Assembly: GCF_002201535.1 (NCBI RefSeq)
Contig: NZ_NIWW01000003.1
Span: forward strand, 248,001-312,000
Reading direction: 5' to 3'
Length of the DNA: 64,000 bases
Source of the DNA: Lacimicrobium sp. SS2-24
GTDB lineage: Bacteria; Pseudomonadota; Gammaproteobacteria; Enterobacterales; Alteromonadaceae
Shown piece by piece: positions 533-35,930 of this stretch (within the stretch, counting starts at the first letter, position 1; every line of letters starts with the position of its first letter). The notes under the pieces are model-generated. The model had not been told where the DNA came from and did no database searches. It was given only the letters and a program-made list of their open reading frames with translations. The translations under genes were made by a program, and so were the position numbers.

Positions 533-1852
533 ATGAGCAACGTCAGGCAACGGATTGTGTCTGCCGCGACGCCAGATTTAATAGCGAGATGCCCTATGCT
601 GCGATTCAACCCGAAGGTTCCCAAGCAAGAGACAGAGCAGGCCTTCCGAATAGATAACCCCAGCAAATACATGACCATCACTTACGTAGTTTCGTTGTCG
701 GTTATCGCGCTGCTCTCCCTTGCTGTACATGTCGTTTTGGATAAAGTTATTCAGCAACAAGGCCAAACTGCAAAAATCGTCAACATCAGTGGTCAACAAC
801 GAATGTTGTCACAACGTGCCAGTCTTTACACACTGAACTATTTGACTACGGGTTCTGAAGAGTCTAGAAATCTGGCGGAAGATGCCACAAACCTCATGTT
901 GGAAAATCATCAGTTTCTGATTAGTCAGAAAAGCAGCAAGGAGGGGTTTTCTGATGCCCTCAACAGTATGTATTTTTCGGCCCCCTATGCGATAGATGAG
1001 CAAGTAAAAGCCTTTTCCGAAAACATCACCAAACATCTAAATGGTCCCCCCTTACAAAACAATAGCAGAGCAGATAATGGGGCATTTTTATTTTCTGAGA
1101 TGGCGAAAAATGATCTTATCGAGGCCTTACACGCCGCCGTCGGGCAATATGAACAGGAGAGCTATGAAAAAGTTGAGGAGCTGAGAATGGCTCAGAACAT
1201 CGTACTTTGGATTATCATCCTCACCATCTTAATTGAGGCTGTCTTTATCTTTCGGCCCATGGTGGCGAAAGTCAGCAGTTTTGCGCAACGCTTGCAGCAT
1301 GATGCCAATTTTGATGTGCTCACAGAAATTTTCAACCGCCGGGCATTTAATTTACTTGCCAAGCGCACATTCGACCTGTCGGTTCGCCACAAACACGCTT
1401 TAAGTGTAATCATGGCCGATATAGACTTTTTCAAGAAAATTAATGATACCTATGGGCATCAGGTCGGTGATGAGGTGATACGGCTGGCTGCTCAGGTGTT
1501 TAAACAGCGCTGCCGTGAGACCGACATTGTGGCAAGGCTGGGAGGCGAAGAGTTTGCAGTCATTTTGCCAGAAACCCCGATTGATGCCGCCACTAAAGTC
1601 GCCGAAGCACTGCACCGGGCGATCGCCAGTCGGTGTTTAACGGTCGAAGGCCAGAAGGTCGCGTTTACGATGAGCTTTGGTATAAGTCAGCGAAACAATA
1701 ATGACACGAATATTGATACGGTCATAAATCGTGCAGACAAAGCATTATATAAGGCTAAAGAAAACGGCCGTGACCGCGTCGAAGTTGAGACAGTGGCAGA
1801 GCCTTCAGTTCAGGCCTCGGTAGTATCATCAACACCTGCTGCTGAGCATTAA
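533..1852 (+). CDS. Membrane diguanylate cyclase with PilJ-like sensor domain
   Basis: 439 aa. A membrane helix at about 48-69 is followed by a periplasmic sensor that begins with the ISGQQRMLSQR signature of the PilJ/NarX-type helical domain. A second helix lies at about 222-243, and a GGDEF domain at about 260-420. The active-site loop is GGEEF (near 336), so the enzyme should make c-di-GMP from two GTP. An RETD I-site sits five residues before it, implying product feedback inhibition. The ATG at 533 has only a weak ribosome site; an in-frame ATG 22 codons later is possible, and both precede the first helix. c-di-GMP from such enzymes usually promotes surface attachment. No phosphodiesterase or target gene is adjacent. 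Confidence 0.92.
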   Translation: MSNVRQRIVSAATPDLIARCPMLRFNPKVPKQETEQAFRIDNPSKYMTITYVVSLSVIALLSLAVHVVLDKVIQQQGQTAKIVNISGQQRMLSQRASLYTLNYLTTGSEESRNLAEDATNLMLENHQFLISQKSSKEGFSDALNSMYFSAPYAIDEQVKAFSENITKHLNGPPLQNNSRADNGAFLFSEMAKNDLIEALHAAVGQYEQESYEKVEELRMAQNIVLWIIILTILIEAVFIFRPMVAKVSSFAQRLQHDANFDVLTEIFNRRAFNLLAKRTFDLSVRHKHALSVIMADIDFFKKINDTYGHQVGDEVIRLAAQVFKQRCRETDIVARLGGEEFAVILPETPIDAATKVAEALHRAIASRCLTVEGQKVAFTMSFGISQRNNNDTNIDTVINRADKALYKAKENGRDRVEVETVAEPSVQASVVSSTPAAEH

Positions 1853-2088
1853 ACGCTGGCCACAAATCTAAAAGTTAAAATTGAATTTTAATCTTGAAGC
1901 TCATTGCCAACCCGGTACAAGCAAAGGGCTAGATTGCATAGGGTTGGAATTCACATCACACTCACAGTCCATTGCAAAATAACCGCGGACGTTGGATAGC
2001 GTAAGACTCCCCGTTTTTTTAAACGGCTAACACATTCTCCTCAGGTCAGTTAAAAGCTGTTGGCCAAGCACGTTATATTGCTCCCTCC

Positions 2089-2497
2089 CCAGAAGCGTTG
2101 CTTTAATCTGAATCAGCTATGCGCACGTGTGGCGGGTAGTAACAAATATCCAGTTTGCCGTTGCCTTTGTATTTAAAAAACGGGTTGTCCATGCTGCGTC
2201 CCTGCTCCAGACGTGTTTGCATCGCCTTAGAATCGGTGCGCTGAATTTGCAAGCTCAGGCGCGCTGTTTCAGGCACCTTGCTGGCCAGCCTGGCGGTTAC
2301 AATCTTGCCCCGGTGCTGAGGCGTTTCAATCACTCCAGAATTTACCATCGCATCCCCTCTGGGCAGGCCCTGAATATGCTCCATACCATATATAACCCGG
2401 CCAAAGACGCTCATATTGCGATCCAGATGGCGTGGCGCCGGCCCAATCACCACGTAAAAATCGGTAGTGGCACTGTTGGCGTCAACGGAGCGGGCCA
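2089..2497. repeat. Direct repeat copy A (3' part of cyclophilin gene)
   Basis: These 409 bp match 3926-4334 in the same orientation with no gaps and about 16 mismatches by my count (about 96% identical). The match starts 14 bp beyond the stop codon of the cyclophilin gene and ends abruptly inside it. The two copies flank the gene at 2532-3830. Confidence 0.95.
2103..2497 (-). pseudogene. Truncated cyclophilin (peptidyl-prolyl isomerase) fragment
   Basis: This is the C-terminal portion (about 130 codons) of the peptidyl-prolyl isomerase encoded intact at 3940-4779. It is in frame down to the same TAA stop. Upstream homology stops at 2497; the frame then meets a TAG within about 8 codons, and there is no convincing start or ribosome site. 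It lacks the N-terminal half, including the signal peptide and the FYRVIEGFVAQGGD core of the cyclophilin fold, so it cannot make a working enzyme. Most changes from the intact copy are silent or conservative, which suggests a recent duplication or gene conversion with the intact gene. Confidence 0.9.
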
Positions 2498-2531
2498 GAT
2501 TGAGATTGTCTGTACACTAAGATCTCTTGGG

Positions 2532-3830
2532 TTAGGGCATCCCCGGCACTGTCTCGCTTTCAAGTGCCGCTTTATACGGCGACTGTGCAGCGAATTGCTC
2601 TGCCTTACGCGGATTATTCGCCATCAAACCTCGATATACCCGTTTTGCCGTTTCCAGTCGTTTTTCCTCACTTTGGATCTTATCAAGATGAGTCATTGAA
2701 AAATCCGGATGCCGGAATACGGCGCGCTCAATGAGCTGGCTTAATGCGCTATCTCTGTCACTGTAATCCGTCTGATCAAGCCAGCTCATTCCGGCTTCGG
2801 GGGCTGTCATAGCGAATGAGTCCATCACCATGTTTATACTTTTTTGTATGTTTCCGGCAGGCGACTGGCGCATGAACCAGTCCGCTGCCTGATTCATTTC
2901 AGCCTCTTTTGACACCATCCAGTTGAATAATACAGTGCGCTGCATGCCTTCATTGTTGAGTGTGCTGGTTGTTAACCACTGACTGGCGCTGCGCGGATCC
3001 TGACTTGCCCAATCCGAAACGAGTGCCTTTGCGACGTCACTATTTCCTTCTAACTGTGCAAGATCAATCAGCTCAATCAACTCACCGGAATGATTCAGGT
3101 TATCAGTGATCCCTTTCACTGCCATATGCAGTTCATTGCGTGAGAGGCTCAGGCCATTAAGCTTGTCCATGGCGTCATATCTGTCATGCGCCGCCAGCCC
3201 TTTAAACAAAGAGAGAGGAAATTGCCCGCCATAAGGGGAGTAGGCGTCTTTATTACGAACAAACCAGTCGTAGGCCGCCTGTGGATTTTGCCTTGACCAC
3301 TCAGACATTATCGTCGTGGCATGGGACAGTCTTTGCAGCGGCTCTTTAACATTGCGATGCAGATAAGCCATGGCCTCCTGGGCATTGAATTGGCTGTATC
3401 GGGTCAGCATCATCGCCAGTAAGCTTCGATGCGCCGGCAAAGCCGCAATGGGCTCGAAATACTGTAGTGCGTCGGTTAACTCAGCCTCGGTCAGCTGACT
3501 GATAGTATTGTATGCCTGACCGAGCTGCCCGTAATTGACCCGTTCACCATTCTCAGTTGCCAGCGTCAGTTTTAAGCGCTCAATCAATGCCTGGCCGTTT
3601 ACATCATCGGAAGGCCCTTCAATAGCACTATCTGTCGCTGGCTTATGCTTTTCGGGCGGCGCTATCGCCGAATCAGGATTATGTCTGACAGTTTGTTGAG
3701 GAGCCTGCTCGGTTTGCTGGTCATAAGCGGAGCTGGTTGAGTTAAAGTGTTGTGGCTCTGTAAAACGGCCAATCAAAAAGGCCACCATCAGGCTCACAAT
3801 CCATAACACAACAACAATCGGCTTCTTCAT
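2532..3830 (-). CDS. Membrane-anchored helical-repeat protein, unknown function
   Basis: 432 aa from the ATG at 3830, which has a GGGAG ribosome site upstream; a longer frame starts 20 codons earlier without one. Residues about 4-22 form one hydrophobic helix, so the protein is probably a periplasm-facing membrane protein. A Gln/Pro/Ser-rich linker of about 60 residues follows, then a largely alpha-helical body. That body carries recurring segments of the type W..(Q/S)(D/N)P..A..W (for example SEWSRQNPQAAYDWF, SDWASQDPRSASQWL, FNWMVSKEAEMNQAADWF), spaced like solenoid repeats. I do not recognise the family. It is transcribed in the same direction as the cyclophilin upstream and sits between the two 409-bp direct repeats, so it may be part of a duplicated segment. 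Confidence 0.75.
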   Translation of the reverse strand: MKKPIVVVLWIVSLMVAFLIGRFTEPQHFNSTSSAYDQQTEQAPQQTVRHNPDSAIAPPEKHKPATDSAIEGPSDDVNGQALIERLKLTLATENGERVNYGQLGQAYNTISQLTEAELTDALQYFEPIAALPAHRSLLAMMLTRYSQFNAQEAMAYLHRNVKEPLQRLSHATTIMSEWSRQNPQAAYDWFVRNKDAYSPYGGQFPLSLFKGLAAHDRYDAMDKLNGLSLSRNELHMAVKGITDNLNHSGELIELIDLAQLEGNSDVAKALVSDWASQDPRSASQWLTTSTLNNEGMQRTVLFNWMVSKEAEMNQAADWFMRQSPAGNIQKSINMVMDSFAMTAPEAGMSWLDQTDYSDRDSALSQLIERAVFRHPDFSMTHLDKIQSEEKRLETAKRVYRGLMANNPRKAEQFAAQSPYKAALESETVPGMP

Positions 3831-3925
3831 ATCCGGCGACTCCCTGTCAGTAGTTCCAGTTACTATTACATGGGCAGAGCGACAGTTCAATTAAGCATGC
3901 CAGGGCGAGTGAAATCCCTTTTCGT

Positions 3926-4334
3926 CCAGAAGCGTTGCTTTAATCTGAATCAGCTACGCGCACGCGTGGCGGGTAATAACAAATATCCAGTTTGCCGTTG
4001 CCTTTGTATTTAAAAAACGGGTTGTCCATGCTGCGTCCCTGCTCCAGACGTTGTTGCATTGCCTTGGAATCGGTGCGCTGGATTTGCAAGTTCAGACGCG
4101 CTGTTTCAGGCACCTTGCTGGCCAGCCTGGCGGTTAAAATCCTGCCCCGGTGCTGAGGCGTTTCAATCACTCCGGAATTTACCCTGGCATCCCCTCTGGG
4201 CAGGCCCTGAATATGCTCCATACCATATATAACCCGGCCAAAGACGCTCATATTGCGATCCAGATGGCGTGGCGCCTGCCCAATCACCACGTAAAAATCG
4301 GTAGTGGCACTGTTGGCGTCAACGGAGCGGGCCA
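3926..4334. repeat. Direct repeat copy B (within intact cyclophilin gene)
   Basis: Partner of 2089-2497, same orientation, about 96% identical over 409 bp. This copy is continuous with the intact 5' part of the cyclophilin gene, so it is the likely source of copy A. Recombination between the two would delete the 432-aa gene. Confidence 0.95.
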
Positions 4335-4779
4335 TGGCAACAACGCCCGGACAATGGATGAGCCATTCCTGTGCATCGATGATGGCGCGCCCTGCCTGAA
4401 AACCATGGAGATAACCCGTTTGTGGGGCAAAGAAGTCGTCTTGCTGAACCAGCTCAAAAACAGAGGTGCCAGTGAGAGGGCGGGTAAACTCTGCCATCAG
4501 AGGAGTTTTAAAGTCTGAAGCTTTTTCGCCCGACATATCTCCGCCTTGCGCCACAAAGCCCTCAATCACGCGGTAGAAATCCAGTCCGTCATAAAAGCCT
4601 TCATTAACCAGACTCGTAAACTGTTTCACATGCTCCGGCGCCACAAAGGGTGCCAGCTCTATGACCACAGTACCGCTTTCCAGCTCCAGATAAACGGTAT
4701 TTTCAGGATCCGGCGTTCGCCACTCTGAAGCCTGGACCGACGATATGAATAGAGAGAATAATAACAGGGCGTATTTCAT
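3940..4779 (-). CDS. Periplasmic cyclophilin-type peptidyl-prolyl isomerase
   Basis: 279 aa from the ATG at 4779 (AAGGAG ribosome site); a longer frame to 4872 lacks one. Residues 1-18 are a signal peptide ending in VQA-S, so the enzyme is exported. The cyclophilin fold is evident from VYLELESGTVVIELAPFVAPEHV, FYDGLDFYRVIEGFVAQGGDM and SATTDFYVVIGQAPRHLDRNMSVFGRV. Proteins of this type catalyse cis-trans isomerisation of prolyl bonds during folding of exported proteins. Compared with short PpiA (about 165 aa), it has an insert before the DFYVVIG strand and an 80-residue C-terminal extension that ends with a CYYPP motif. The 3' 395 bp are duplicated at 2103-2497. Confidence 0.92.
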   Translation of the reverse strand: MKYALLLFSLFISSVQASEWRTPDPENTVYLELESGTVVIELAPFVAPEHVKQFTSLVNEGFYDGLDFYRVIEGFVAQGGDMSGEKASDFKTPLMAEFTRPLTGTSVFELVQQDDFFAPQTGYLHGFQAGRAIIDAQEWLIHCPGVVAMARSVDANSATTDFYVVIGQAPRHLDRNMSVFGRVIYGMEHIQGLPRGDARVNSGVIETPQHRGRILTARLASKVPETARLNLQIQRTDSKAMQQRLEQGRSMDNPFFKYKGNGKLDICYYPPRVRVADSD

Positions 4780-4873
4780 ACTAGCGCACTCCTTGATACT
4801 GGGTAGCTCATTATAATTAGCAATTTCACTCATAAAACGCAGGTCTGCAGGCAGAGAACAGAGAAGATGCAAC

Positions 4874-5353
4874 CTACAACAGCAAACGCCCTTCTACTGG
4901 GATAAAGCGGCTGGCGGCGTTAACCAATGACAAGGCAGTTAATTCGGGTACACCATAGACTTCAACCTGGCAGCCATACTTTTGCTGAATTCGCTCTGCC
5001 AGTAAGGCAAAATCACCGTCACCAGAGGCCAGCACCACCGTATCAACCCGATCGGCAAAGTCCATGGCATCTAAGGTAATGCCCACATCCCAGTCACCTT
5101 TGGCTGACCCGTCGGCACGCTGAATAAAGGGTTTCAGGCGCAATTCAAAACCAATGGCCCGTAGAATATTCTGAAACTGCCGTTGCTTTTCATTGCCCCG
5201 GTCAATGGCGTAGGCAAAGGCCTTTGCAACCTCTCGACCGGCAGTCGCCTGAGCCCAGAACTGGTTATAGTCAAAATGACGGGAATAAGCATCCCGGGTG
5301 GTGTAATACAAATTCTGCACATCCGCCAGAATCAGCACCTTTTCTTGCGCCAT
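4874..5353 (-). CDS. NYN-domain (LabA/DUF88-like) putative RNase
   Basis: 159 aa. The protein starts with VLILADVQNLYY and carries KGDWDVGITLDA and VVLASGDGDFALLAERIQ. These are the three acidic clusters of NYN/PIN-like nucleases in the LabA/DUF88 family, expected to bind a metal and cut RNA. It is a stand-alone NYN domain with no C-terminal OST-HTH/LOTUS domain. The ATG overlaps the stop of the upstream acetyltransferase (TAATG), so the two are translated together. Substrate and role are unknown. The distance to the cyclophilin start is 94 bp, so that gene probably has its own promoter. Confidence 0.85.
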   Translation of the reverse strand: MAQEKVLILADVQNLYYTTRDAYSRHFDYNQFWAQATAGREVAKAFAYAIDRGNEKQRQFQNILRAIGFELRLKPFIQRADGSAKGDWDVGITLDAMDFADRVDTVVLASGDGDFALLAERIQQKYGCQVEVYGVPELTALSLVNAASRFIPVEGRLLL

Positions 5354-5766
5354 TACAATTCCTTGGTCATAAAGTACTTAGAGCCGGTCAGCGGATAGTG
5401 CTGTTGTGTCCATTGCACCCGATAGCCGCATTTCTCGTAAAAAGGCCGGGCCTGGATATTGAGGGTGTCGAGGAGACAGAACTTACAACCCCTAGAGGCT
5501 GCTTGTTGTTCCATCGCAACAAGGAGCTGGCTGCCTACCCCTTTGCCGCGTTGGCTGTTATCCACCCACAAGGTTTTCAGTTGCAGCCAGTTACCAAAGG
5601 TTTCACCAGCGGCTCCGCCGACAATGGTACCGGCTTCATCTCTTAGCACCGCTGCAAGAGGTTGTCGCTCATTCCATTCCCGGTGAGCCCGATTAAACTC
5701 GACAATCTGCTGGTGTAAAAACTCGGTAAGAGATTCTGATGGGGTGTTTTCTATTTCAATTTTCAT
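5353..5766 (-). CDS. GNAT-family N-acetyltransferase
   Basis: 137 aa from the ATG at 5766 (or 140 aa from an ATG at 5775; neither has a clear ribosome site). The acetyl-CoA loop is seen as QRGKGVGSQLLVAMEQQA (Q/RxxGxG/A pattern), preceded by the strand LQLKTLWVDNS and followed by the typical C-terminal FYEKCGYRVQW. It transfers an acetyl group from acetyl-CoA to an unknown amine. The stop codon overlaps the start of the NYN nuclease, so the two are probably co-translated. Some GNAT proteins paired with nucleases are toxins or modifiers, but nothing here shows that. Confidence 0.88.
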   Translation of the reverse strand: MKIEIENTPSESLTEFLHQQIVEFNRAHREWNERQPLAAVLRDEAGTIVGGAAGETFGNWLQLKTLWVDNSQRGKGVGSQLLVAMEQQAASRGCKFCLLDTLNIQARPFYEKCGYRVQWTQQHYPLTGSKYFMTKEL

Positions 5767-5829
5767 GTGTTGCATCAGGCAGATAGGGTGAGGCAAGCCT
5801 ATCTTCTGTCTGCTATGTAACGCAAGACC

Positions 5830-7215
5830 TTAATCAGTCAGGTCACAGGGAAGCGTCAGCGTGAAGGTTGTACCTTGTTCCGGTTCAGAGGTGGCCTCCA
5901 ACTGCCCTTTTAACTTAGCGGTGGCAAGGTTGTAGCTGATGGACAATCCGAGCCCCGAACCACCCTGGCCTCTGCGGGTAGTAAAAAACGGCTGGAAGAT
6001 ATCTTTTAGCACCGCTGCAGGCATCCCCTTACCATTATCTCTGAACACTATGACCACCTGTTGTCGGCCTCCTTGTTGCTTTGGTGTTACCTCAATCAGC
6101 AATTCATTACGGCGTTCATTGCTATCAAAAGCATGCACGCAGGCATTGTTGGTCAGATTGGTGAGGATCTGCGCCAGCGCCCCCGGATAACTGTGCATTG
6201 CGACAGGTTCATCGGCGCGCAGCAAATAGTTCACTTGATGTTTTTTGAGCATGGGCAGCAAACTCGACATGACCACCTGAATATACTCACCCAGTTCAAA
6301 CTTGGTTAAGGCCAGATTATGTTGATCTACTGCGGTTTTTTTGAAATTTTGCACCAGTTCTGCGGCCCTATCCAGGTTTAAGGTCACCAGATTGAGACTT
6401 TGATACATACTGTCGATATGTTGATCGAGGGCTTGGCGGGTAAGGCGGTTATCAGTAATTTTACTACGCAACTGGTCAAGCAAATGTTGACAATGACTGG
6501 CCCCGGTGACAGCTATCCCCAGTGGTGTATTGACTTCATGGGCGACACCGGAAACCAGACTGCCCAGTGAGGCCATTTTCTCATTTTCAATTAACTGCTT
6601 TTGAGCCTGTTTCAGGGAATCCAGTGTTTGTTCAAGGCTGGCGGTGCGCTGCTGCACCAGATTTTCCAGAGAGGCATTGGTTTCTTCGAGTTTGCGGGCG
6701 TAGTCATTGCGCTCTTTGGCACTGATGGCCCGGCCCACCAAATCGGCCATTGCCGCCGCGAAGCTTTGTTCATCCTGACTCCAGTGTTTCTCGCCGCCAA
6801 TGTGTTCACAGCAAACGATGCCCACCATTTCTCCCCGATGACGTATCGGCATGTCCAGCATCGCACCGATACCCATGGGTTTGAGATACACTTCTGTAAA
6901 GGCTTCTGTGGCAGGGTGGCTACAGGCATCATCTGCGGAAATGGTGCGCTCAGTATCCAGTGCATCAAAATAAGCAGGGAAGTCCTTGCGGGTGAGTAAG
7001 ATGTCTTCATCACGGGTCTGGTGATGCAAATCAATGACCAGATTACAGCGAATGCCTCCTGCTTCTTTATCCAGCATCCATACGCCGGCACGCTGAATTC
7101 GCAGGCCTCGCAGCAAGGAGTTGATGATAAGCTCCTCAGCCTGCTGCATATCTCCTAAATCAATTAACCGTGATTTAGAGACCTCCAGTAACAGGTTTTC
7201 CAGTTCTGCCTGCAT
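5830..7215 (-). CDS. GAF-domain sensor histidine kinase
   Basis: 461 aa, no membrane helix, so cytoplasmic. A GAF domain covers about 20-165, a coiled coil about 165-215 (KLEETNASLENLVQQRTASLEQTL), and the dimerisation/phosphoacceptor helix contains VAHEVNTPLG (His near 227). The ATPase domain has the N box (LTNLTNNACVHAF), the G1 box (DNGKGMP) and the G2 box (GQGGSGLGLSI). This is an HPK4-like kinase with all catalytic motifs intact. It is expected to sense a small ligand or redox state through GAF and phosphorylate a response regulator. None is adjacent, so it is an orphan kinase; the receiver protein at 13576 is a distant possibility only. Confidence 0.92.
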   Translation of the reverse strand: MQAELENLLLEVSKSRLIDLGDMQQAEELIINSLLRGLRIQRAGVWMLDKEAGGIRCNLVIDLHHQTRDEDILLTRKDFPAYFDALDTERTISADDACSHPATEAFTEVYLKPMGIGAMLDMPIRHRGEMVGIVCCEHIGGEKHWSQDEQSFAAAMADLVGRAISAKERNDYARKLEETNASLENLVQQRTASLEQTLDSLKQAQKQLIENEKMASLGSLVSGVAHEVNTPLGIAVTGASHCQHLLDQLRSKITDNRLTRQALDQHIDSMYQSLNLVTLNLDRAAELVQNFKKTAVDQHNLALTKFELGEYIQVVMSSLLPMLKKHQVNYLLRADEPVAMHSYPGALAQILTNLTNNACVHAFDSNERRNELLIEVTPKQQGGRQQVVIVFRDNGKGMPAAVLKDIFQPFFTTRRGQGGSGLGLSISYNLATAKLKGQLEATSEPEQGTTFTLTLPCDLTD

Positions 7216-7524
7216 GGCGATTTTGTATCCGCTTGTTCTGTGCCAGTACGCTGCAACATTGACTCTGATGAATAAAGCCTAATCCATCCTACTCAATTTG
7301 GTAAGGTTTTTGCTGTATTTCTTGGGAAGACTGATGATGCAAGGCCAGTAACATCCTGTTGGCATGTAACAAAAGCTTCATTTTTTGTTAATAAAAAGTA
7401 AAGAAAGCTGTTCTACTTTAACTTTGCTTATGGTATATCTTGATTGTCGATACCGCCAAGCCCCACTGAAAGAGGGGGCAGCCTGTCGATGCTCTATGCG
7501 CTAACACAACAAAGGAGATCTCAC
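7216..7524. other. Divergent intergenic region (309 bp)
   Basis: Separates the histidine kinase (minus) from the DUF3545 gene (plus). It is AT-rich between 7380 and 7445 (GTTAATAAAAAGTAAAGAAAG), as expected for promoters. A possible -10 (TATATC) for the plus-strand gene is near 7434, but no clear -35 pairs with it. No ORF, RNA gene or repeat is seen. Confidence 0.5.
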
Positions 7525-7701
7525 GTGGATCAGTCAGATTTGATGTCTATGCTCGACTTAGAGTCCCGTCCTGTTAAAAACAAAAGTAAAAAACGCAAAT
7601 GGAGAGAGATCGAAGCCATACAAGATCAATACAAGCTTCGCAAAGAACTGGCAGATATGGATGTATTGCTGGATTACGAATTAAGCGAGCTTGATGCCTG
7701 A
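7525..7701 (+). CDS. DUF3545 family small protein
   Basis: 58 aa. The best start is the GTG at 7525, which follows an AAAGGAGA ribosome site by 7 bases; a longer frame from 7444 has none. The protein is highly charged. A basic block (KNKSKKRKWREIEAIQDQ) is followed by an acidic helix ending LLDYELSELDA, the pattern of the DUF3545 family of short gammaproteobacterial proteins. The role of this family is unknown. The gene is monocistronic, closed by a strong terminator. Confidence 0.82.
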   Translation: MDQSDLMSMLDLESRPVKNKSKKRKWREIEAIQDQYKLRKELADMDVLLDYELSELDA

Positions 7702-7706
7702 CACGT

Positions 7707-7735
7707 AACGCCCTGCCACGCAGGGCGTTGTTGTT
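7707..7735 (+). terminator. Rho-independent terminator after DUF3545 gene
   Basis: Perfect 10-bp stem AACGCCCTGC/GCAGGGCGTT with a 3-base loop, starting 5 bases after the stop codon and followed by GTTGTTT. Confidence 0.85.
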
Positions 7736-7865
7736 TCTGGCTAACAATAAGCAAGAAAGGCTGATTCCATACAGGCTATGGGCACTGTCAGCCTGACCTT
7801 GTGGCCGGTATTGCATAGCACCCGGAAGTAGCCCTGTTGTCCCTGATACGGATAGCCGTGGTTGA

Positions 7866-8525
7866 CTATTCAATACGCCAGTCAATGGCGCTTTTTCCCT
7901 GCTTTAGCAAGTACTCATTGGTCATGGAAAAATGACCGCAGCCCAAAAATCCACGGTGTGCTGACAGAGGCGATGGGTGGGGTGCTTTTAGCACCAGGTG
8001 GCGCTGCGTATCCACCATCTTGCCCTTTTTTTGTGCATGACTGCCCCATAACAGGAACACCACGCCCTGAGTATGGCGGTTAATCTGTTCTATGACTTTA
8101 TCGGTAAACCTTTCCCAGCCAATTTTGGCATGGGAATGTGCGTTACCCTGCTCCACCGTCAGTACGGTGTTGAGCAACAACACACCCTGTTGGGCCCAGC
8201 TCTGAAGACAACCATGAGCCGGTAGACTGAATCCGTCAACATCACGGGCCAGTTCTTTATAGATATTCACCAATGAAGGAGGCGGTTTTATCCCGGGCTG
8301 TACGGAAAAACACAAGCCATGGGCCTGATTCGGCCCGTGGTAAGGATCCTGGCCAAGAATAACCACTTTGAGCTGATCCAGCGATGTCATTTTAAACGCA
8401 TTAAACACCTCACTCTGCGGCGGATAAATCACTTTACCCGCTTCGCGCTCCCTACTCACAAAGTCGATGATCTGCTGAAAATAGGGCTGCTGTTTTTCCT
8501 CGCCCAGTATCGCCTGCCAGTCCAT
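7866..8525 (-). CDS. ung: Uracil-DNA glycosylase
   Basis: 219 aa, the usual length for family 1 Ung. Motif 1, the water-activating loop, is [18 protein letters not shown] with the catalytic Asp. Motif 2, the DNA-intercalating loop, is [20 protein letters not shown] with the catalytic His. The enzyme removes uracil from DNA after cytosine deamination or dUTP incorporation and starts base-excision repair. Its ATG overlaps the thrC stop codon (TAATG), so here ung is the last gene of the threonine operon. That is an unusual setting, and its expression may follow threonine attenuation unless an internal promoter exists. Confidence 0.97.
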
Positions 8526-9805
8526 TACCCCTTAACCAGCTTATACAGATGCTTTTTCAAAAGTTCATAATCACAGGCCAGCGTTTCAGACAGCCCTTCT
8601 TTACTGGCACATTCCGCCAACTCGGGGGGCAAGCTGATCGGCTGACCCAACACATTTTCCACCGTATCACGGAATTTCGCCGGATGGGCCGTGCCCAGGA
8701 AGATACCGGTCTGGCCGGCTTCTAAAACCCGCTCCAGCGCCTTATAGGCAACCCCCGCATGAGGTTCACTGACATATCCCAATGCGGCAAGCTGACGCAT
8801 GGCAAGCTGAGTGTATTGCTCATCCACCATGTCGGCGACCAGCAGTTCCTTATCCAGATAACCAAATTCAAACAAGGCTTCGATACGCGGCCAGTTGTTC
8901 GGCTGACTGACATCCATGGCATTAGACAGGGTTGCAACCGTTGGATTAGGCGCCCAGTCACCATTTTTAAGATAACGGGGAACCGTGTCATTAAGATTGG
9001 TAGAGGCCACAAACCGGGTTACGGGCAGGCCCAGCACCTTGGCAAACATACCGGCGGTGAGGTTACCGAAGTTACCGCTAGGTACAGAGAAAACCAGGTT
9101 GGAGCGATCTTCGAGCTGAGAAACAGCCTCGAAGTAGTAACAGATCTGCGCCATCAGACGACTGATATTAATGGAGTTGGCCGAGTTTAAATGCAGCGCC
9201 TTGCGCGCTTCTTCATCATTAAAGGTACTTTTCACCAGTTGCTGACATTGATCAAAGTCTCCTTCGATGGCAACCGTGTGGATATTCCCTCCCAGCGTGG
9301 TGAACAGCTTTTCCTGTAAGGTACTGATTTTGCCTTTAGGAAAAAGAATCACCACGTCGATATTATCCAGACCATGAAAAGCATGGGCTACCGCCGCACC
9401 GGTATCACCGGAGGTGGCCGTCAGAATGGTGATCTTTTCGCCCTTGGCCACTTCCGCCAGACACTGTGCCATAAAACGGGCACCGAAGTCTTTAAACGCC
9501 AGTGTCGGTCCATGGAACAGTTCCAGGCAATAGATGTTGTCGTCGACCTTCGCCAGTGGAGCCGGAAAATCGAAGGCTTCAGACACCATTTGCGCCAGCC
9601 GCTCACGGGGGATTTCATCACCGATCAGACGATGCAGGATTTCTGCACTACGCTCTGCCAGGGGCATTGCCAGCAATGCGTCAATATCTTCAAAGGTCGG
9701 CAGTTGGGCGGGGAAAAACAAGCCCTGATTCTGCCCCAGGCCTTGCTTGACGGCCTGGCTGAAACTCACTTTTTCATCGGGTTGCTTTAAATTGAAAAGT
9801 TGCAA
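8525..9805 (-). CDS. thrC: Threonine synthase
   Basis: 426 aa, collinear with E. coli ThrC from the first residues ([19 protein letters not shown]). The start codon is TTG, supported by an AAGGTG site a few bases upstream and by the family N-terminus. It converts O-phosphohomoserine to threonine with PLP; the PLP lysine is in [14 protein letters not shown]. The gene starts 2 bases past thrB and its stop overlaps the ung start, so it lies inside a tight thrABC-ung operon. Confidence 0.97.
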
Positions 9806-28979: not shown

Positions 28980-29816
28980 TCAGAACAATTCGGGATTCAT
29001 CAGCGCCAGCAGTTTATGGGCATCCATTTGAGTAAATTTAACGGTATCCTGCACATCCTGTGCTTCCAGCTTCAGCTTTTTCAGTGCCACTGGCGACAGT
29101 AAACTGTCTGTTTGGTAGCGATTATCTACCATATGCAACGCCAGTCGCACACTGACATGACCAATCGCCAGATCTTTACCACATGCGCTTTTGAGGTCGT
29201 CATGCATATGCTCAATGATATAGCTGAATTGATTCGGCAGTTGCCACTGCTGCAAAATCAGCGCTGAGCATTGTGTGTAGGTAAAGCCGAGCAAACGCTG
29301 TTGCCGCTGCCAGGGCAGCTCATCTTTGTCATATTGCGCGCAATCGGCCACCAGCTCAGGCTCATTGGCAGCCAGTACCAGTTCGCTGAGCTGGTGCAGT
29401 AATCCGGCAACAAAGTATTCATCACTGCCTCTGACTTTGGCGTCCCGTGCCAGGTGCTTGGCAGCCAGACCGGCATACACACTCTGCTGCCAGAAACGGC
29501 GCAAATCTACCACATCGTTGGCGAAATGCCGGAACGCAGAGCTGGCCGTTTCTGCCAGCGCGAGATTATACAGTGCCTCTCCACCAATCACATTTACGGC
29601 TTTGGCAATAGAGTTAACCTGAGCAGGAAAGCGAAACAGCGCACTGTTAGCAAGCTTGAGTAATTTTGAACTTAAAGAAGGATCCAACGCGATCACATCT
29701 GCAATATCCGCCGCGTCTGCACTGGGGTCGTCCAGCAGTGAACGGATCTTGGAACAGCTCTGTGGCAAAGCAAAAGATTGCCCCGCATACCTGGCTACTT
29801 CTTGTGCACTTCGCAT
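28980..29816 (-). CDS. HDOD domain protein
   Basis: 278 aa made of one HDOD domain. It starts with SFALPQSCSKIRSLLDDPSADAADIADVIALDPSLSSKLLKLANSALF and continues with INSIAKAVNVIGGEALYNLALA-type helices. HDOD proteins are HD-like helical folds without a full set of catalytic metal ligands, often used as signalling adaptors with c-di-GMP, chemotaxis or stress systems. The start overlaps the end of the DUF1289 gene by 22 bp, so the two are translated from one message. Confidence 0.9.
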   Translation of the reverse strand: MRSAQEVARYAGQSFALPQSCSKIRSLLDDPSADAADIADVIALDPSLSSKLLKLANSALFRFPAQVNSIAKAVNVIGGEALYNLALAETASSAFRHFANDVVDLRRFWQQSVYAGLAAKHLARDAKVRGSDEYFVAGLLHQLSELVLAANEPELVADCAQYDKDELPWQRQQRLLGFTYTQCSALILQQWQLPNQFSYIIEHMHDDLKSACGKDLAIGHVSVRLALHMVDNRYQTDSLLSPVALKKLKLEAQDVQDTVKFTQMDAHKLLALMNPELF

Positions 29817-30070
29817 TCGTTCTCACTCCCCAAAAACAAGGATTCTTGCTGCATTTCCTGTTGTGGATGTAGGGACTGCGTCGCAAGTTCTGCTTTTCGT
29901 TTACGCCTGTTGCAGGCCTTAATAATACGTCTTTTCACACTGGCATCCAGTTTGTGCCAGTAAAGTCGCTCGTCTCTGGAACGATAGCAACCCAGACAAT
30001 ACCCGGTTTTACCTGATTGGCACACGCCAATACAAGGACTGGGGATGTCAAAAAACTCGAGTTGTTGCAT
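29795..30070 (-). CDS. DUF1289 family protein
   Basis: 91 aa. The family core SPCIGVCQSGKTGYCLGCYRSRDER contains four cysteines in a C-x3-C-x7-C-x2-C array, likely metal-binding. After it comes W.KLDASVKRRIIKACNRRKRK. The C-terminal 30 residues are variable and acidic. The function of DUF1289 is unknown. It overlaps the HDOD gene downstream and diverges from the AMP phosphorylase operon. Confidence 0.9.
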   Translation of the reverse strand: MQQLEFFDIPSPCIGVCQSGKTGYCLGCYRSRDERLYWHKLDASVKRRIIKACNRRKRKAELATQSLHPQQEMQQESLFLGSENECEVHKK

Positions 30071-30167: not shown

Positions 30168-30216
30168 TTGATCCATATCAACCGGTAAGGTCCGGGCCGT
30201 GGCTATACTCGGTCTC
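30168..30216 (+). promoter_or_regulatory. FNR box and class II promoter of the nucleotide operon
   Basis: TTGATCCATATCAA at 30168-30181 is a perfect match to the FNR consensus TTGAT-N4-ATCAA, and the dyad extends to GGTTGAT/ATCAACC. A -10 hexamer TATACT lies at 30204-30209, which puts the transcript start near 30216. The box centre (30174.5) is then 41.5 bases upstream of that start, the standard position for FNR class II activation. The site points at the AMP phosphorylase gene; the DUF1289 gene on the other side starts about 100 bp away. Confidence 0.85.
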
Positions 30217-30291
30217 AACGTATCAGCATACCTGAATGTTCCCTGATATTGTGGTAATCATTTTAACAACTATAGATTGCTGGGGTAGAGT

Positions 30292-30330
30292 ATGAACAAC
30301 AAGCCTGCTTATGGTGGCACGATCCGATGA
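30292..30330 (+). CDS. Possible 12-residue minicistron overlapping the AMP phosphorylase start
   Basis: ATG at 30292 after GGGGTAG, 12 sense codons, and a TGA that overlaps the downstream ATG (ATGA). The main gene has only a poor ribosome site of its own, so ribosomes finishing this short frame could reinitiate there. It may be chance; no conservation can be checked here. Confidence 0.35.
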   Translation: MNNKPAYGGTIR

Positions 30331-32734: not shown

Positions 32735-32757
32735 CACGGCCCATTGATGCAAAGTAA

Positions 32758-32787
32758 CGGCCCGGGTGGATAATGCCAGCCGGGCCG
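32758..32787. terminator. Hairpin between convergent operons
   Basis: 8-bp GC stem CGGCCCGG/CCGGGCCG with a 14-base loop, between the ends of the PRPP synthetase-like gene and cusA. There is no clear U-run on either side, so it is a weak or Rho-assisted terminator at best. Confidence 0.45.
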
Positions 32788-32795
32788 GCTCAAGT

Positions 32796-35700
32796 TCAGA
32801 TAGAGTCTGTTGATGCCTTGACCTGATGCCTTTCGATTAACAAAAACAACACCGGTATCACTAACAGAGACACCAAGGGCGCCAGAATGATGCCACCTAA
32901 CATGGGCGCGGCAATGCGCTGCATCACTTCATGACCGGTGCCGGCGGTAAACATAATGGGTAACAGGCTGGCAATCACCGTGAGTACCGTCATCGCCTTA
33001 GGACGAATACGCTGAACGGCTCCTTCGATAATCGCATGATTAAGGCCAGAGGCAGTTTTTTTCGGCTGCTCACTCCAGGCCTGATTCAGATACAGGTACA
33101 TGATCACGCCAAACTCTGCCACCACGCCCGCAAGCGCAATCATTCCGACCGCCACGGCAACCGACAGGTTGAATTCCAACAGCCAGAGCAACCACAGACT
33201 ACCGGTCAGTGCCAATGGCAACGTCGCCATCACAACCAGACTCTGTTTCCAGCTCGACAGCGTGATGTACAGCAACAGCAGGCAAATGAACAGAGTCAAG
33301 GGAATGAGCTTAGCCAGACTCGCCTCAACCCGTTTGATTGACTCATATTGCCCGGACCAGGAGACCGTATAACGGGCAGGCAATGTCAGCTCTGCTTCCA
33401 GCAACGCTTTAGCCTTTTGCAAGTACTCTCCCACTGAGACATTCTGGATGTCGATAAAAGTCCAGCCTACCGGTCGTGCGTTTTCGCTTTTAATCATCGC
33501 CGGTCCTTCAACAATGCTCAGGGTTGCCAGTTTGAACAGCGGAATATAAGCACCATCTGAGGTACTGATGGGGAGTTCCCTGAGCTTGTCCACATTGTCC
33601 CGCCAATGGCGGGCAAAACGCAGGTTTATTGGATAACGCTCGTTGCCCTTGATCACCTCATCAATGGCCGCTCCACCGATGGCGTAGCGCACCAAATCAT
33701 GCAAGCGAGCCACGCTCAGTCCATATTCAGCCAGCGCACTGAGATCCGGTTCCAGCTCAAGGTAGCGGCCACCGGCTACACGTTCAGAATACACCGATGC
33801 CGTATCTGGCAGTTGTTTCAATATGCTCTCTACCTGCTCACCGATTGCTTCTATTTGCGCCATATCAGGACCCGAAATTTTAAGACCCAACGGGGTCTTG
33901 ATACCGGTCGATAACATATCAATGCGGGTTTTAATCGGCTGTACCCAGGCATTCGTCAGCCCGGGAAAACGCACCTGCTGTTGCAATTCCTGCTTTAGTT
34001 TATCCAGGGTCATGCCCTCTCGCCATTGGTCACGGGGCTTCAACTGGATCGTCGTTTCCAGCATGGTCAGCGGCGCCGGGTCCGTCGCCGTTTCCGCCCG
34101 GCCTACTTTGCCAAATACGGTCTCAACTTCAGGCAGCTGTTTGATCAGTCGATCGGTTTGCTGAAGAAGCTGAGCCGCCTTACCCGCACTGATGCCCGGC
34201 AGCGTGGTGGGCATGTAAAGCAAGTCACCCTCATCGATTTGTGGCATGAACTCGTTACCAAGCTGTTGAAGCGGATAGTAGCCACTCCCGAGCAATAGCA
34301 GGGATAAGACCAGCGTCATTTTTGGAAAAGCCAGTGCGCCGTTTAGAATCGGCCTATATAAGGCAATCAGAAACCTCGACAACAAATTACGTCGCTCAGG
34401 GACAATATTGCCGCGCACCCAATAGCCCAGTAACACGGGTACCAGAGTTACCGCCAATAGCGCCGAGGCCGCCATGGCAAATGACTTTGTCAGTGCCAGT
34501 GGCGTAAACAGGCGCCCCTCCTGCCCCTGCAATGCAAAAACCGGAAAGAAGCTCACGGTAATGATCAAAAGCGTCAAAAACAGCGCTGGGCCGACTTGCT
34601 GACAGGCCTGTGAAACCAACTGCCAGTGCTCATTTTTGCTAGGCTTTCGTCCTTCTTTTTCGGTGAATTTTTCCAACGTCTTGTGAAGATTTTCGATCAT
34701 CACGATGGCCGCATCGACCAGTGCACCAATGGCAATCGCAATACCACCCAGACTCATGATATTGGCACTGATATCCAGCATCCGCATCATCAAAAACGCA
34801 ATGAGTAAGGCTAAAGGTAAGACCAATACTGCCACCAGAGTAGAGCCCAGATGCCACAGAAATAACAACAACACCACGGAAACTATGGCAATTTCCATGA
34901 CCAGTTTGTCAGTAAGGTTATCCACCGCGCGCTGAATAAAGGCGGAACGGTCATAGGTGGTCACCACTTCTACGCCGTCCGGCAACGAAGCTGATAATTG
35001 GTCGAGCTTATCTTTGACCCGGCCAATCACTTCACGTGCATTCTCACCGCTGCGCATCACCACAATGCCGCCAACGACCTCGCCCTCACCATTGAGCTCT
35101 GCAATGCCACGGCGCAGTGAAGGCCCCAGACGCACCTCTGCCACATCTTTTAGCTGTAGCGGAATATTCGCCTGATTTCGTTTGCCCAATGGGATGTGGT
35201 TAAAGTCATTGATATCGGTAAGATAGCCTTTGGCTCTGAGCATATACTCGGCCTCGGCCATCTCAATGCTGGCCCCGCCCACCTCACTGTTGTTATTGCG
35301 AACGGCAGTAAGCACATCCATCACCGATAACTGATAGGCAGAGAGCTTTAAAGGATCGAGTACAACCTGGTAGGTCTGGGTCATTCCCCCCACCGTTGCC
35401 ACTTCAGACACCCCGGCAACAGACTGTAGCTCCTGCTTTAAAAACCAGTCTTGCAGACTTTTCAGGTCAGCCAGGTTGAGATTGCCTTTTGTGTCTTTCA
35501 GAGCATATTGATAAACCCAGCCGACGCCGGAAGCGTCAGGACCTATTTGCGGCTGTACACCCGGGGGTAATTGCGACGCGGCCTGATTCAGGTATTCCAG
35601 CACCCGGGAACGGGCCCAGTAAATGTCGGTGCCATCCTCAAAAATGAGATATAAGTACGAATCTCCATAGAACGAGAATCCACGTACCGTTTTCGCCCCG

Positions 35701-35930
35701 GGCACGGCCATCATGATATTGGCAAGCGGATAGGTGACTTGCTGCTCCACCAGTTCCGGGCTTTGCCCTGCATAGGGCGTTTTGATAATCACCTGCACAT
35801 CGGATAGATCCGGAATAGCGTCCACATTCAGGCTTCGCATTGCCTGCCAACCCGCAATGCCAAGTGCGGTCATAAGAAGCAGCACCAGGGCACGCTGGCG
35901 AATACAAAATGCGATCAGTTTGGATAACAT
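32796..35930 (-). CDS. cusA: CusA-type heavy-metal RND efflux pump
   Basis: 1044 aa, a full-length RND transporter with 12 membrane helices and two large periplasmic loops. It matches CusA closely at [57 protein letters not shown] and the TM4 proton-relay segment [21 protein letters not shown], so it belongs to the monovalent cation (Cu+/Ag+) HME subgroup. It sits in the inner membrane and expels metal with proton import. It lies 9 bp after the adaptor gene. No outer-membrane channel (cusC) is in the operon. Confidence 0.95.
   Translation of the reverse strand: [1044 protein letters not shown]

Follow-up and report, generated by a model that had tools for sequence, protein, structure and literature searches.

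Introduction

FNR class II promoters of the Escherichia coli type carry the site TTGAT-N4-ATCAA at −41.5 and a sigma-70 −10 element, with no good −35 element. The narG and NarK-family genes are classical targets of FNR. FixK2 is without the oxygen-sensing cluster of FNR. The AMP phosphorylase of Thermococcus kodakarensis belongs to the pentose bisphosphate pathway and to an enzyme family with an N-terminal extension, which also includes the phosphorylase described here.

The closest described operon is found in Bradyrhizobium diazoefficiens, an alphaproteobacterium of soybean root nodules. Genes for a thymidine phosphorylase family protein, a PRPP synthetase and an MBL-fold hydrolase form one predicted operon, bll3117-bll3116-bll3115, with a putative FixK2 box, ATGATCTGGGTCAA, whose first base is at −74 (PMC9104804). 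Upon deletion of fixK2, the reported changes are −6.6 for bll3117 and −30.6 for bll3115 (PMC9104804 Table 2), and bll2518 (phosphoketolase) and bll2517 (acetate/propionate kinase) are also down approximately 10-fold (PMC9104804). At 0.5% oxygen, the log2 rise of the protein is 2.9 for bll3115, 4.4 for bll3116 and 2.1 for bll3117, and the transcripts rise 15.4-, 7.7- and 5.1-fold, respectively (PMC6515984 Table 2). The same report places the three genes in the expanded and not the core microoxic set; they are not listed there as direct targets of FixK2 or NifA, nor as raised in bacteroids (PMC6515984).

A preliminary description of the locus studied here was aware of no established account of such genes being switched on without oxygen in a gammaproteobacterium. 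This has to be corrected, because low oxygen induces the Bradyrhizobium operon, which is FixK2-dependent (PMC9104804 and PMC6515984); a low-oxygen link is therefore not unheard of, and control of such an operon by the FNR family is already known from this alphaproteobacterial precedent. In Bradyrhizobium the regulator is FixK2, whereas the predicted sensor in our host is FNR; the host has an exact box at class II spacing and a ribonuclease gene unlinked to the operon. Among the papers listed in literature searches that covered few subscription journals, neither the phosphorylase operon nor a beta-CASP ribonuclease was found as a gammaproteobacterial FNR target. New here are FNR as the likely regulator in alteromonads, the conserved geometry and the evidence of repeated recruitment, together with a shared predicted switch for an unlinked RNase/Na-Pi operon.

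Results

The features of the locus are listed in Table 1. The preliminary description had claimed a perfect FNR consensus followed by TATACT at class II geometry, and both readings stand. No other zero-mismatch TTGAT-N4-ATCAA occurs in the window, and the predicted start puts the centre of the box at the class II position. With up to two mismatches, the window holds 56 such sites against a mean of 35.4 in shuffles.

Table 1. Features of the phosphorylase locus. Positions are those of the window, the whole 64-kb (64,000-nucleotide) stretch of DNA that was analysed.
Feature	Position	Strand	Remarks
Divergent DUF1289 gene	29795–30070	−	then HDOD gene, 28980–29816
FNR box TTGATCCATATCAA	30168–30181	+	exact TTGAT-N4-ATCAA, centre 30174.5
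−10 hexamer TATACT	30204–30209	+	22 bases after the box
Predicted transcription start	30216	+	7 bases after the −10; box centre at −41.5
Predicted leader, 111 bases	30216–30326	+	predicted start to phosphorylase gene
Archaeal-type thymidine/AMP phosphorylase family protein, 502 aa	30327–31835	+	profile searches
PRPP synthetase-like protein, 300 aa	31832–32734	+	NF005537, 365.3 bits (cut-off 322)
G+C-rich hairpin	32753–32790	+	after the operon, before the convergent gene's end; without a T tract

A promoter scan found no sigma-70 −35/−10 pair at the predicted promoter, as is expected for an activator-dependent class II promoter. The box near −41.5, the −10 element and the poor −35 that mark this class, and that make the promoter like those of the E. 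coli type, can all be read from the letters, with a predicted start; the target genes differ. We regard the promoter prediction as sound and ordinary in kind, and the regulatory prediction that follows from it as strong. Further downstream, TTAACA-17-TAGAGT (30263–30291) is a weaker sigma-70 match (9/12), which could possibly mark a second start.

The product of the first gene scores 643 bits against NF003338 (cut-off 434) and 564.8 bits against TIGR02645 (cut-off 434.6). Against the AMP_phos equivalog model TIGR03327, it reaches 457.1 bits (cut-off 535), so that its identity as an AMP phosphorylase, in which it would match the archaeal enzyme, is not proven. The nearest solved structure by sequence is 4ga5 (324 bits), with 4ga6 also among the nearest. 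The start of the second gene overlaps the stop of the first (ATGA), giving two overlapping genes. Its product exceeds the cut-off of the ribose-phosphate diphosphokinase model, which predicts this activity, and its nearest solved structure is 1u9y. Of the operon named in the preliminary description, the archaeal-type phosphorylase family and the PRPP synthetase-like partner are therefore upheld and the specific AMP phosphorylase label is not. The hairpin behind the operon was not picked up by a terminator scan; the whole 76-base stretch that contains it has a z of −2.7, and it is possibly a terminator without a T tract. Convergent on the operon is a CusA/CzcA family metal efflux (RND) gene (window 32796–35930; TIGR00914, 1176 bits, cut-off 701), and a piece of a CusA/CzcA-type gene lies likewise 3′ of the operon at the same-genus locus L015.

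An oxygen-sensing FNR, which a class II promoter of this kind needs, is predicted in the host genome (G000, 3.7 Mb), in agreement with the regulator named originally. This bona fide FNR (L001, 952–1692) scores 391.5 bits against NF008365 (cut-off 228) and 324 bits against a solved FNR, whose cysteine positions and VETISRLL recognition helix it shares. Its gene is followed by uspE (NF008380, 475 bits, cut-off 227), which we take to be the gene order of E. coli. The Crp helix-turn-helix model PF00325 matched two proteins in the genome, and an additional CRP may have been missed by this search. The Crp helix-turn-helix of the second protein (L002, 1447–2121) contains VETLSRLM, which is similar to the FNR sequence; the protein scores 87.7 bits with the Fnr model (cut-off 228) and 59 bits with that of FixK (cut-off 300). 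The best family of the response regulator encoded divergently from it is FixJ (188.8 bits, cut-off 255). We note that L002 1447–2953, with a Crp/Fnr protein bearing N-terminal cysteines and a FixJ-like regulator, is a possible FixJ-FixK-like pair in an alteromonad.

The 3.7 Mb hold 11 exact TTGAT-N4-ATCAA sites compared with one for the reversed pattern. With up to one mismatch there are 240 sites compared with 21, which means that the motif is compositionally favoured, that the reversed pattern is an imperfect control and that loose matches mean little. Of the 11 exact sites, three are intragenic (L109, L111 and L117, read from the ORF maps), and L110 is the window's own. One has a narG piece (TIGR01580, 852 bits) on one side and a gene for a NarX-like kinase (291.5 bits, cut-off 578; L116) on the other, and two stand before genes for a NarK-family transporter (338 bits, cut-off 312; L114) and a weaker NarK relative (173 bits; L112). 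The others precede an anaerobic ribonucleotide reductase gene by approximately 0.5 kb (TIGR02827, 549 bits, partial gene; L115), a porin-like gene without a match in the family search (L113), a small c-type cytochrome-like gene (TIGR02603, 28 bits, cut-off 68; L108) and an aminotransferase-like gene identified by eye (L107).

Conservation of the box was followed upstream of orthologous phosphorylase genes. A phosphorylase over the cut-off was present in 17 of 147 relatives, 76 of 369 genomes of the class, 26 of 394 of the order and 44 of 398 of the phylum. These genomes and four named contigs provided 145 loci, or 139 unique loci after removal of six duplicates. Seven of the 139 had fewer than 150 bases upstream and were dropped, leaving 132 upstream regions. 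Exact boxes occur within 300 bases upstream in 7/132: the window's own locus (L020), two of the host genus (L015, L016), two of Bowmanella (L003, L005), L056 and L046. Ten other windows of the same loci (133–139 regions each) gave 0, 0, 0, 0, 0, 0, 1, 0, 0 and 1, and 200 Markov resamples gave a mean of 0.085 and a largest count of 1. A looser criterion (at most one mismatch, or TTGA-N6-TCAA) was matched in 16/132; the other windows gave 0 to 9, and the resamples a mean of 2.4 (largest 7). Since loose sites reach 9/133 elsewhere, they were rejected as a measure of conservation, and the exact class alone is clearly above background. The pattern TTGA-N6-TCAA occurs in 13/132 upstream regions and five other palindromes in 0/132 each, although these five are also rarer across the whole loci (2 to 14 vs 55).

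In the host genus, the box and TATACT are kept as islands in all three genomes, with spacings of 22, 23 and 21. The box of G001 has the host letters, and that of G002 differs by one spacer base. The box-to-start distance is 67–69 bases longer in the host than in these two genomes. In the genus of Bowmanella pacifica, to which the host is related, four of five genomes keep the box with at most one mismatch (three exact and one with one mismatch), and G016 has two mismatches. Exact boxes are also present in two other gammaproteobacterial lineages, and the distant L010 (43% identity) has a one-mismatch box with TATACT at spacing 22. Two loci of genus g475 (L162, L164), which we take to be Bradyrhizobium, have the same letters as the putative FixK2 box, centred at −76. 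A site at −407 of L097 was not counted; it falls within the same-strand upstream gene (ORF map), a beta-CASP gene by sequence.

The conservation expected of orthologues is thus found in the host genus and in most of the B. pacifica genus and is absent from most other loci. Even the loose site is absent in 116/132 upstream regions, including those of the close orthologues L106 (69% identity) and L004 (66% identity). In a FastTree phylogeny of 129 phosphorylases, from the 139 loci and L179–L181 (142 in all), a loose site is present in 18/129 and requires at least 12 state changes, indicating repeated gain or loss, with a few of these probably due to chance. In the printed order of the tree, G016 does not stand with the remaining loci of its genus. 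With most orthologues lacking the box, its control appears to be lineage-specific and recurrent.

A beta-CASP gene (Beta-Casp and RMMBL domains) is a recurrent neighbor of the phosphorylase. By tblastn, it lies next to and downstream of the phosphorylase/PRPP synthetase pair, in the same orientation, at no fewer than 20 of the 139 loci, upstream of the pair at 10 or more, upstream of a phosphorylase without a PRPP synthetase match at three or more, and on the opposite strand beside the pair at two or more; these linkage counts are lower bounds, as many loci have a 1.5 kb flank only. The pair has no beta-CASP match at 101/139 loci, and the phosphorylase stands alone at 3/139. The beta-CASP gene of the host is located on a different contig (G000 C1:249050–250453; L221 2548–3954, minus strand), unlinked to the phosphorylase and followed by a Na/Pi symporter gene (NF037997, 174 bits, cut-off 50). 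Upstream of it there is an FNR-type box with one mismatch, CTGATCTATATCAA, and such a one-mismatch box is kept in four genomes (the host, G001, G002 and G063).

Both sets of boxes favor the class II spacing of the −10 element. For 15 orthologous phosphorylase boxes, some of them near duplicates, spacing 22 gives the best −10 among 54 spacings, and the best of spacings 21–23 ranks 1/52. For the four beta-CASP boxes the corresponding ranks are 1/54 and 2/52; neither set of ranks represents independent draws, because the box sets include close relatives.

We examined 31 beta-CASP loci (30 matches listed of a longer list, and L121). Twenty-one encode a protein at least 45% identical to that of the host, and nine of these 21 carry a box with no more than one mismatch, three of them exact. 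Among the 10 below 45% identity, one has a box. Boxed beta-CASP genes are also found in four genomes without a phosphorylase over the cut-off (G004, G018, G019, G025), which makes the RNase a probable FNR target independently of the phosphorylase. The host beta-CASP and the operonic one of L106 share only 33% identity. With orthologues in genomes lacking the phosphorylase, this makes the functional tie looser than the shared box suggests.

Two further gene rows combine several of these elements. At L217 (G009, 2146–7298), an exact box approximately 430 bases before a beta-CASP gene is followed by genes for a universal stress protein, a frameshifted phosphorylase and a PRPP synthetase. At L218 (G101, 1634–8954), genes for the phosphorylase, PRPP synthetase, an acetate-kinase family protein, a phosphoketolase-like protein and the beta-CASP protein stand on one strand, with no box found. 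The acetate-kinase family and phosphoketolase-like proteins are under their NCBIfam cut-offs, and the phosphoketolase is over its Pfam cut-off (149 bits vs 22). This row is possibly a complete route from RNA ribose to acetyl phosphate. The phosphoketolase family PF03894 was found in 7/20 genomes tested, and in none of the three of the host genus or the five of the B. pacifica genus. A phosphoketolase as the end of the host route was therefore rejected, since with 0/8 the route to acetyl phosphate cannot apply in the host. On C17 of G016 (L216, 1479–9970), a beta-CASP/Na-Pi pair lies approximately 3 kb from the phosphorylase pair, and both boxes are degenerate, with two mismatches each.

Discussion

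From the sequence elements, their conservation and the FNR found in the genome, we infer that the host FNR binds the box and, through class II activation, switches on the phosphorylase/PRPP synthetase-like operon in the absence of oxygen. We hold this to be quite probable. Without oxygen, FNR would keep its iron-sulfur cluster and dimerize, and the dimer at −41.5 would recruit RNA polymerase to the TATACT promoter, thereby turning on the operon. The same factor is predicted to activate the separate beta-CASP ribonuclease and Na/Pi symporter operon. Together, the products of both operons would convert RNA to nucleotides, and the nucleotides with inorganic phosphate to base and ribose-1,5-bisphosphate (or nucleosides to ribose-1-phosphate). 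The ribose would then pass to PRPP or the pentose phosphate pathway. The PRPP synthetase-like enzyme could work forward to PRPP, or in reverse, with PRPP and AMP giving ATP.

Three other accounts of the box were considered. The box might mainly serve the second Crp/Fnr protein, in a FixJ-FixK-like cascade, or both proteins. The closeness of VETLSRLM to the FNR helix, the gene position divergent from a FixJ-like regulator gene and the FixK2 dependence of the same operon in Bradyrhizobium speak for this, but the protein stays far below the Fnr and FixK cut-offs, a canonical FNR is encoded in the genome, and exact sites also stand before narG and NarK-family genes; we consider this account unlikely. 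It is very improbable that the exact match is a chance palindrome and that the operon is constitutively expressed from another promoter, such as TTAACA-17-TAGAGT. In favour of chance, the motif is compositionally favoured, 3/11 exact sites are intragenic, and the 9/12 sigma-70 match lies downstream. Against chance, the box and the −10 are conserved islands across the genus, the box persists across most of the B. pacifica genus, and the 7/132 exact boxes compare with 0–1 in other windows. That the box works for the divergent DUF1289/HDOD genes instead of the phosphorylase operon is scarcely credible. The box starts 97 bases past the start of DUF1289, and the DUF1289/HDOD pair is present beside it in G001 and G002. 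However, the pair was not found by tblastn at any of the five box-keeping loci of the B. pacifica genus (L003, L005, L179, L180 and L181, with L003 and L180 apparently from a single genome). It is thus the phosphorylase operon that the box accompanies, and the class II-spaced −10 is on the phosphorylase side.

The purpose of the operon leaves more room for a different account. Control by FNR could be real and the operon could serve biosynthetic nucleotide or PRPP supply (base exchange, anaerobic DNA precursors) instead of RNA breakdown for energy. We treat this as a serious possibility, though not the one we favor. It is consistent with the exact site near the anaerobic ribonucleotide reductase gene and with the PRPP synthetase-like gene that follows the phosphorylase at 133/139 loci. 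The recurrent neighbors, namely the beta-CASP RNase, the Na/Pi symporter and the acetate kinase and phosphoketolase of L218, point instead to breakdown. The best reading remains that ribose is recovered from nucleotides or RNA under FNR control, a role that we propose from the gene content.

A wider reading can be put forward only tentatively, and we find it rather doubtful. Proteobacteria may possess a module for oxygen limitation by which RNA is converted to usable ribose and phosphate, and which FNR-family regulators have repeatedly captured at linked or unlinked loci. It would comprise the beta-CASP RNase, the archaeal-type nucleotide phosphorylase, the PRPP synthetase-like enzyme and the Na/Pi symporter, to which some lineages would add phosphoketolase and acetate kinase. 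If true, it would amount to a general anaerobic RNA-salvage or energy reserve.

The information lies in the target, the promoter itself being of an ordinary kind. The FNR prediction assigns an orphan bacterial gene pair, known mainly from archaea, to anoxia as a defined physiological state, and connects it with a ribonuclease through a shared predicted regulator even where the two are unlinked. If it is right, it offers a direct test of whether anoxic bacteria draw ribose, phosphate or ATP from their own RNA. At two distant gammaproteobacterial phosphorylase loci, FNR-type sites (L228, 4230 and 5893; L229, 3517) also lie near a glutamate dehydrogenase-like gene, which at L228 scores 475 bits against NF040817 (cut-off 750) and at L229 was identified by eye.
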